Assembly: GCA_019686175.1 (NCBI GenBank)
Contig: JADGHJ010000004.1
Location: forward strand, 1-38,947
DNA from: Chloroflexota bacterium
GTDB taxonomy: Bacteria > Chloroflexota > UBA6077 > JAJPHF01
Length of the DNA stretch: 38,947 nucleotides
Direction of reading: 5' to 3'
Under the pieces are notes generated by a model. The model ran no database searches. It worked only from the letters and a program-made list of their open reading frames with translations, and was not told the origin of the DNA. Below, in pieces: positions 9,343 through 26,810 of this stretch (the first letter of the stretch is position 1; every line of letters begins with the position of its first letter). The translations under genes and the position numbers were made by a program.

Positions 9343-9969
9343 CTACTCTGGCGCCTCACCCGCCTTGGCCAGTTCCCGGCAGGCCAGGTCGTACGCCTCG
9401 CGCAGCACGCTGTACGGCTGCGCGCCGTGGACGGCGATATGGTCGCCGAACACCATCGTGGGCACGAGGCTGATCCCCAGCTGATGCGCAATGTGCTCGA
9501 GCTGCACCACGCGGCCGCGATACGTGCCCTCGGCCAGCGCCGTACGCAGCGCCGCACCGTCGAGCCCCACGCGCTCGGCGACCTCGGCCAGCACCTCGGG
9601 CGCGCCGATGTCGCGGTTGTCGACGAAGTACGCCTGGAACAGGGCGACGCGCATGGCGTCGAAGCGCCCGCGGTCGCGCGCGAACTCAGCCGCCTCGTGG
9701 GCCCAGCGCGAGCGCGGCTTGAAGGGCGGGAAGCGCATCTCGACCCCGTAGCGGGCGGCCAGTGGCGCTACCCCGCGCGCCCAGTTGGCCTGGTAGCGGG
9801 CGAGATCCGGTCCGGTCAGGTCGGGCAGCGGCTCGGGCTCTGGACGCAGTTCGAACGGGAGCCACACCAGTTCGACAGGGTGCTGGCGCTGAAGCTCGGC
9901 CAAGGGCCCCTCGGCCAGGTAGCAGTACGGTCAGACGTAGTCGGAGAACACCAAGACCCGCAGCGCCAT
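9343..9969 (-). CDS. DsbA-family (FrnE-like) thiol-disulfide oxidoreductase with in-frame UGA at the first active-site Cys: candidate selenoprotein (U-P-Y-C)
   Basis: ATG at 9969 with SD-like GGGGG 6 nt upstream: MALRVLVFSDYV-[UGA 9931-9933]-PYCYLAEGPLAELQRQHPVELVWLPFELRPEPEP... continuing in frame to 9343. DsbA/FrnE proteins carry DxVCPxCY at this position. Confidence 0.85.
9898..9916 (-). promoter_or_regulatory. Candidate bacterial SECIS-like hairpin: GGCCGAGG-GGC-CCTTGGCC, 8-bp stem (one G-U), 3-nt loop
   Basis: Begins 14 nt downstream of the UGA; apical loop starts 22 nt after it and begins with G. Confidence 0.5.
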
Positions 9970-26093: not shown

Positions 26094-26681
26094 CTAGCTC
26101 GTGGGCGGCTGGAAAAACGAGCAGCGCACGCTCCAGGTGCTCTGAGGGTACTCGCGCTGCAGCCGTCCCCAATACTCAGCCAGGTGCGACCGGTCGTGGG
26201 TCACGCTGTAGCCCACCACACCCCGCCAGTACAGGAGCTGCGGCGTATACTCGCCCTGCGCGAAGCGCGCCAGCGCGTCATCGAGCGCCTGGATCGCCTC
26301 CTGGCCGCGGCCGGTGGCCAGCAGTCCCTTGGCCCGAGCCAGGGCGAGCATGGGCAGGAAATCGTTGGGGGGCAGGAAGCCGATCTCGCGGTGCACCTCG
26401 CGCCCCCGCCCGTCGCTGATGATGAACGTCGGGGTCCATAGGGGCACCAGCTCACGGGCCTGCGCGGCTTCGGCATCGTCGGAGAGGTTGAGCTTCACGG
26501 GCACGAAGTGCGCGTCGATGAAGGCGGAGACGGCGGCGTCTGGATACGTCACGGCATCCATCCGCTGACAGCCGCCTCAGGTCGGGCGGTACAGGTCCAC
26601 CAACAGCAGGCGACGAGTGTCGCGGGCCCGCTCCCGCGCCGCCGCCAGGTCGTGCTGCCACGCGATCGCTTGTTGGGTCAT
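26094..26681 (-). CDS. Thioredoxin-fold protein with in-frame UGA at the first active-site Cys: candidate selenoprotein (U-G-G-C)
   Basis: ATG at 26681 with SD GGAGG (7-nt spacing): MTQQAIAWQHDLAAARERARDTRRLLLVDLYRPT-[UGA 26577-26579]-GGCQRMDAVTYPDAAVSAFIDAHFVPVKLNLSDDAEAAQARELVPLWTPTFIISD..., same frame to 26094. Confidence 0.87.
26532..26576 (-). promoter_or_regulatory. Candidate SECIS-like structure downstream of UGA: outer GGCGGC/GCCGCC, inner GTCA(g)CGG-ATGGATG-CCGTGAC
   Basis: Inner hairpin at 26548-26569; outer arms at 26571-26576 and 26532-26537; apical loop starts 15 nt after UGA. Confidence 0.35.
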
Positions 26682-26810
26682 GCTGCCACCTCCGTTGCTA
26701 GCTGCTCCTGCGCCTTCTCTCTGCAGGAGCACACCCAGGTGCCCGCAGAAACCGTGCCGCAGCCCCCGCCGGACAACAGCGGGAGCCTAGTGCCTACCGC
26801 GCACCCGCGC

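Follow-up and report, generated by a model that had tools for sequence, protein, structure and literature searches.

Among the 119 families or subfamilies of prokaryotic selenoproteins listed in a 2026 review is a thiol:disulfide interchange protein with a PF13098 domain and a UxxC motif; an entry that combines a thioredoxin (Trx) domain with a TPR-like domain is absent from this list (PMC13188914). The order of a thioredoxin domain followed by a TPR-type domain is known from the CnoX/YbbN chaperedoxins. According to the description of deep-Sep, a survey tool of 2025, all known selenoproteins seem to have cysteine homologues, and its filter may discard those without them (PMC12013277). Here we describe a gene on the minus strand of the window (the whole 38,947-nt stretch of DNA analyzed) that very probably encodes a complete selenocysteine (Sec)-containing thioredoxin-fold selenol/thiol oxidoreductase. 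From computation we infer that its in-frame UGA is read as Sec, with support from the conservation of the UGA, coding sequence on both sides of it, the Sec machinery, constraint at the RNA level and the predicted fold.

Reading frame and predicted fold

An earlier note on this DNA had placed the start at ATG 26681, behind a GGAGG at 7-nt spacing, with 34 sense codons up to a UGA at 26577-26579 and the same frame running on to 26094. The sequence bears this out: ATG 26681 is followed by 34 sense codons (MTQQ...YRPT), a single internal UGA (26579-26577) and 160 codons to a TAG (Table 1), and on read-through the motif around the UGA is U35-G-G-C38. In the mechanical ORF list the gene begins further in, at ATG 26561, which removes the redox centre, as the same note had correctly pointed out. 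The read-through protein matched PF13098 (41.7 bits) and PF13899 (39.1 bits; cut-off 27 for both), each match spanning the UGA; judged from these matches and from the 17 homologues that keep both halves in frame, the frame 26681-26094 is not a chance open frame. An Rfam scan of the window returned tRNA-Gly only.

Table 1. Features of the candidate selenoprotein gene (positions in the window)
Feature	Position	Strand	Details	Basis
Selenoprotein CDS	26094..26681	(-)	ATG 26681, stop TAG 26096-26094, 195 aa including one Sec	17-member family alignment and AF2 model
Shine-Dalgarno GGAGG	26689..26693	(-)	7-nt spacer to ATG	Sequence
In-frame UGA, predicted Sec35 of U-G-G-C motif	26577..26579	(-)		UGA at same column in 17/17 full-length homologues; Sec machinery in genome
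Cys38, predicted resolving cysteine of UxxC	26568..26570	(-)		Invariant in family alignment
Candidate SECIS hairpin	26541..26560	(-)	Stem UGGAUGC/GUAUCCA, loop CGUGAC 26553-26548, 23 nt after UGA	Folding, codon constraint, bSECIS model
Thioredoxin-like domain	26346..26618	(-)	Residues 22-112, matched by PF13098	Pfam, alignment, AF2 model
C-terminal helical, TPR-like domain	26127..26369	(-)	Residues 105-185; helices 105-122, 126-139, 146-161, 164-177	AF2 model, weak TPR matches

The AlphaFold2 model built on the 17-member alignment (pLDDT 93.9, pTM 0.89) has a thioredoxin fold in which residue 35 directly precedes helix 36-45, followed by four helices (105-177) that resemble TPR hairpins. The invariant residues of this alignment include U35, C38 and W82-T83-P84, and Trp82-Thr83-Pro84 is likely the cis-Pro loop. 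Both domains (PF13899 and PF13098) over their gathering scores, a UxxC at the start of a helix and the probable cis-Pro loop are what we found of a Thioredoxin-like oxidoreductase. Over its whole length the top PDB match of the model was the Trx-TPR protein YbbN/CnoX (3qou; E 4.2e-7, 192 columns, TM 0.42, rmsd 11.8 Å), and another match was DsbD gamma (1uc7; target TM 0.74). Since no obvious signal peptide was seen by eye at the N-terminus, a cytosolic location is likely. The earlier note had described a thioredoxin-like fold with UGA in place of the first Cys of CxxC, a description upheld by the two Pfam matches and by the Cys of distant homologues; it did not mention the TPR-like domain at the C-terminus, the candidate SECIS hairpin or the fact that the full-length family is Sec-only in the sample.

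The window also contains a second read-through candidate at 9345-9969 (-), with the first base of its UGA at 9933. Its product, MALRVLVFSDYV-U-PYC..., is DsbA/FrnE-like with U-P-Y-C at the active site, and when read through it matched PF01323 with 116 bits. DsbA-like UxxC selenoproteins are a listed family (PMC13188914). The earlier note counts the gene at 26094-26681 as its candidate selenoprotein 2, and the DsbA/FrnE-like gene is probably its selenoprotein 1.

Distribution of the family and constraint on its codons

Seven homologues of full length came from a first search of 201 related genomes, and the matched stretch of each contains one in-frame UGA. A later profile search covered 399 genomes of the phylum and yielded 17 full-length members, the window's included, in 16 genomes and six taxonomic families. 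All 17 carry the UGA at the same column and a Cys at +3, so that the in-frame UGA is conserved at the redox-active position (UxxC), and in none of these 17 does Cys replace Sec. Full-length members scored between 284 and 176 bits in this search; next came a Cys protein that consists of the Trx domain only, at 83 bits, and the Cys domains found in larger proteins scored 62 bits or less. Two paralogues (L018 and L044) occur together in genome G006, and a second TGA at the C-terminal end of L019/L054, L056 and L059 was read as their stop. Solved structures of distant Trx-fold relatives, e.g., 2kuc, have Cys exactly at the UGA position, and Cys homologues at the Sec position were found at this domain level only. 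The alignment suggested in the earlier note therefore gave a divided answer, in that Cys does stand at the UGA position in distant Trx-fold homologues, whereas the close full-length homologues all have UGA.

Outside the phylum, 399 Pseudomonadota genomes contained no full-length member: what matched there was the Trx domain alone, with about 61 bits at most, within ORFs 570-630 residues long. No full-length relative was found in the plasmid collection either. Within this limited sample (399 genomes of the phylum, 399 Pseudomonadota genomes and the plasmids) the full-length family is Sec-only. A single-protein scan of genome contigs for close relatives gave only two Reyranella matches, which were set aside as spurious (a short PPNDFLPML stretch). 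Gene neighbourhood was not conserved among the six families, and where the same neighbours reappear it is mainly in close relatives.

Three further loci deserve description. The nearest Cys relative (L064; G336:C75:26002-26313) is short and consists of the Trx domain only; it has WCGPC and what appears to be a lipoprotein signal, but no TPR-like tail. L045/L050 (G000:C150:46-363), at the end of a contig, is a degraded remnant of the C-terminal part of a second family member and is interrupted by TAG and TGA; it resembles the L017/L018 subgroup and is either a pseudogene or a poor contig end. L017 (G084:C290, around 640-790) has an AGGAGG but lacks a canonical start codon at the expected place, and its next ATG is 21 codons before the UGA, pointing to a non-standard start or a sequence error.

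Close relatives compared in pairs had a dN much lower than dS over the 29 codons that precede the UGA (L019 vs. L059: dN 0.03, dS 0.97; L021 vs. L022: dN 0.20, dS 1.08), and likewise downstream of it. These substitution rates indicate that the codons on both sides of the UGA are under purifying selection, a strong argument against a real stop combined with an internal start.

Selenocysteine machinery, candidate SECIS hairpin and other readings of the UGA

The earlier note had advised checking the genome for the Sec machinery, and the complete set was present: tRNA-Sec (73.3 bits, anticodon UCA), SelA (574.5 bits), SelB (355.7 bits) and SelD (385.3 bits), in an assembly of 4.36 Mb that is fragmented (425 contigs) and has 5.1% estimated contamination. 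The host SelD (L013; G000:C70:376-1296) has an internal UGA at its catalytic SHGAG-U-ACK site, i.e., it is itself a Sec-containing SelD; the catalytic UACK site is the usual location of Sec in this protein. Among the 15 other genomes with a family member, SelA was over the cut-off in all 15 and tRNA-Sec in 14. Since SelA is widespread in the phylum (present in 322 of the 399 genomes), its association with the family is mild evidence only (0.81^15, about 0.04).

The bSECIS model asks for a loop of 3-9 nt with G in its first two positions, a stem of at least 4 bp, a spacing of 16-37 nt and a minimum free energy of -7.5 or lower (PMC13188914). The hairpin in the window agrees with this model in its loop (CGUGAC), 7-bp stem and spacing (23 nt), and barely in its energy (-7.6 kcal/mol against the limit of -7.5); the energy limit was also reached by 16% of random positions in the GC-rich window, so that energy alone is not evidence. 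Folding of 43 nt was no better than that of shuffled sequences, while folding of 51 nt was better (z -2.4). The same hairpin, UGGAURC-CGUG[A/U]C-GUAUCCA or a close variant, was found in 13 of the 17 members with its loop starting 23 nt after the UGA, and 94.5% of the cells of the 13-member alignment were paired, compared to 15-50% with the partner slid; covariation was slight, only one pair having changed on both sides. Three members of one genus (L020, L021 and L022) have the hairpin CACGGC-UGGAA-GCCGUG, or a G-C variant, at a distance of 16 nt from the UGA; the hairpin of L060 is similar. The replacement of the CGUGAC-loop hairpin in these three by a different strong hairpin nearer the UGA looks like a switch of SECIS form within the family; between L020 and L021, an A-U to G-C change affected both sides of the stem.

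Synonymous codon usage is constrained at the same place. When members with the same residue were compared, the codon differed in 0/66, 0/81 and 0/84 comparisons at positions +6, +7 and +8 from the UGA, and in 13% at +9. Codons +6 to +9, which lie on the 5' arm and loop of the hairpin, had the lowest synonymous change of 85 four-codon windows (0.042 vs. a median of 0.52; 0.064 with one member per subgroup), and it was not so low at the same offsets in Cys homologues (0.24 vs. 0.41 elsewhere). This comparison indicates that, in the Sec family, selection acts at the RNA level on the 5' arm and loop of the hairpin. The strong evidence for a SECIS is comparative, not energetic, and codon constraint of this strength makes the family a clear natural SECIS set.

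How else could the UGA be read? If it were an ordinary stop, the gene could be expressed only by starting further in, for instance at ATG 26561, and the 155-aa product would have no redox centre. This is the model that mechanical ORF callers arrive at, and the window does have an ATG just downstream of the UGA, but in all 17 members the codons just upstream are conserved at the protein level, with a dN much lower than dS, most members have Leu in place of that ATG, the ATG sits in the 5' arm of the SECIS hairpin, and the product would lack the first strand as well as Sec; we regard this reading as very improbable. A pseudogene, or a sequencing or assembly error that turned a Cys or Trp codon into a spurious UGA, might be suspected in a fragmented assembly that holds a degraded C-terminal paralogue fragment with TAG and TGA (L045) at a contig end. 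It is refuted by the UGA at the same codon in sixteen other full-length loci, several of them in nearly complete genomes, and purifying selection on both sides of the UGA also speaks against it; we give it next to no weight, and the sequencing error against which the earlier note had warned is excluded. Insertion of Trp, Cys or Arg, through a changed code or near-cognate suppression, would equally account for conservation on both sides, which requires read-through itself. Against it stand the dedicated tRNA-Sec (UCA) with SelA, SelB and SelD, the presence of Cys and not Trp at the UGA position of distant homologues, constraint on the RNA exactly where a SECIS is expected and the use of UGA as terminator by several members, and it seems to us quite as improbable as the internal start. 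Sec insertion, which the earlier note had proposed, is supported by the machinery, the UGA in 17/17 members, the codon constraint and the predicted fold.

A further reading concerns function and is a variant of Sec insertion, not an alternative to it. By analogy with CnoX/YbbN, the protein could be a Sec-armed chaperedoxin whose tail would hold unfolded proteins by chaperone activity while the Trx domain would protect or reduce their cysteines. The best whole-length fold match (E. coli YbbN, 3qou) and the Trx-then-TPR order common to both argue for it, as does the active reductase found in Caulobacter CnoX (PMC6282202). On the other side, the TM-score and rmsd of that match mean a different placement of the domains, the tail consists of about four helices in a protein of 195 aa vs. 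284 and without WCxPC, and the Trx domain is nearer to DsbD-gamma/Thioredoxin_7. We consider chaperedoxin function unlikely.

Proposed mechanism and comparison with known systems

The known bacterial Sec pathway and thioredoxin chemistry suggest how the selenoprotein would be made and would act. Ribosomes would start at ATG 26681, the SECIS hairpin in the coding sequence after the UGA would recruit SelB with Sec-tRNA, Sec35 would be inserted at 26579-26577 and translation would run on to the TAG. Sec35, at the N-terminus of helix 36-45, would then be the attacking nucleophile and Cys38 would resolve, in what we infer to be the reductase direction, and the C-terminal TPR-like helices would most likely dock a partner or substrate.

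Thioredoxin_7, DUF255 (Thioredox_DsbH) and the C-terminal domain of DsbD share the fold, and the PDB relatives include DsbD gamma; PF13899 and PF13098 matched all 17 members and PF03190 matched 16. These proteins differ in having CxxC, mostly within larger proteins, and in lacking the C-terminal domain of the family, and the scores drop from 176 to 83 at the boundary. Three Trx-like selenoprotein models of NCBIfam matched over the Trx region, all far below their cut-offs (TsoB, NF045694: 33 vs. 805; Trx_VPGUxxT, NF041383: 17.5 vs. 275; Trx7/PDZ, NF041199: 13 vs. 300), and no NCBIfam selenoprotein model reached its cut-off for the window protein. A literature search likewise found no Trx-TPR selenoprotein.

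The chaperedoxins resemble the family in domain order and fold type and gave the best whole-length PDB match, if with a TM-score of only 0.42. The family differs from CnoX/YbbN in its short four-helix tail, domain placement and Trx subfamily, and in its motif: the 17 members have UxxC without a preceding Trp, and neither WCxPC nor SxxC with a second conserved cysteine. When profiles were compared, the match to E. coli YbbN was weak (probability 20.6%, with an approximate query sequence), and membership is not claimed.

The PF13098 UxxC thiol:disulfide interchange selenoprotein (PMC13188914) has the same PF13098 domain with Sec first in UxxC; going by its description in the table of that review, the family is set apart by its TPR-like C-terminal domain and by a full-length Cys form not being found. 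Gene callers that start after the UGA would truncate the members and lose the active site, as the mechanical ORF tables did here. Sec proteins normally have Cys orthologues, so that it is unusual for all full-length members in the sample to carry Sec, and the question arises why Cys does not suffice. The family is apparently a Sec-containing Trx-like oxidoreductase family not yet catalogued. We put forward, as a tentative idea that we hold to be possible without favouring it, that it is an obligate-Sec family overlooked until now, with Cys relatives at the domain level only instead of a Cys orthologue, and possibly a selenium-armed chaperedoxin.
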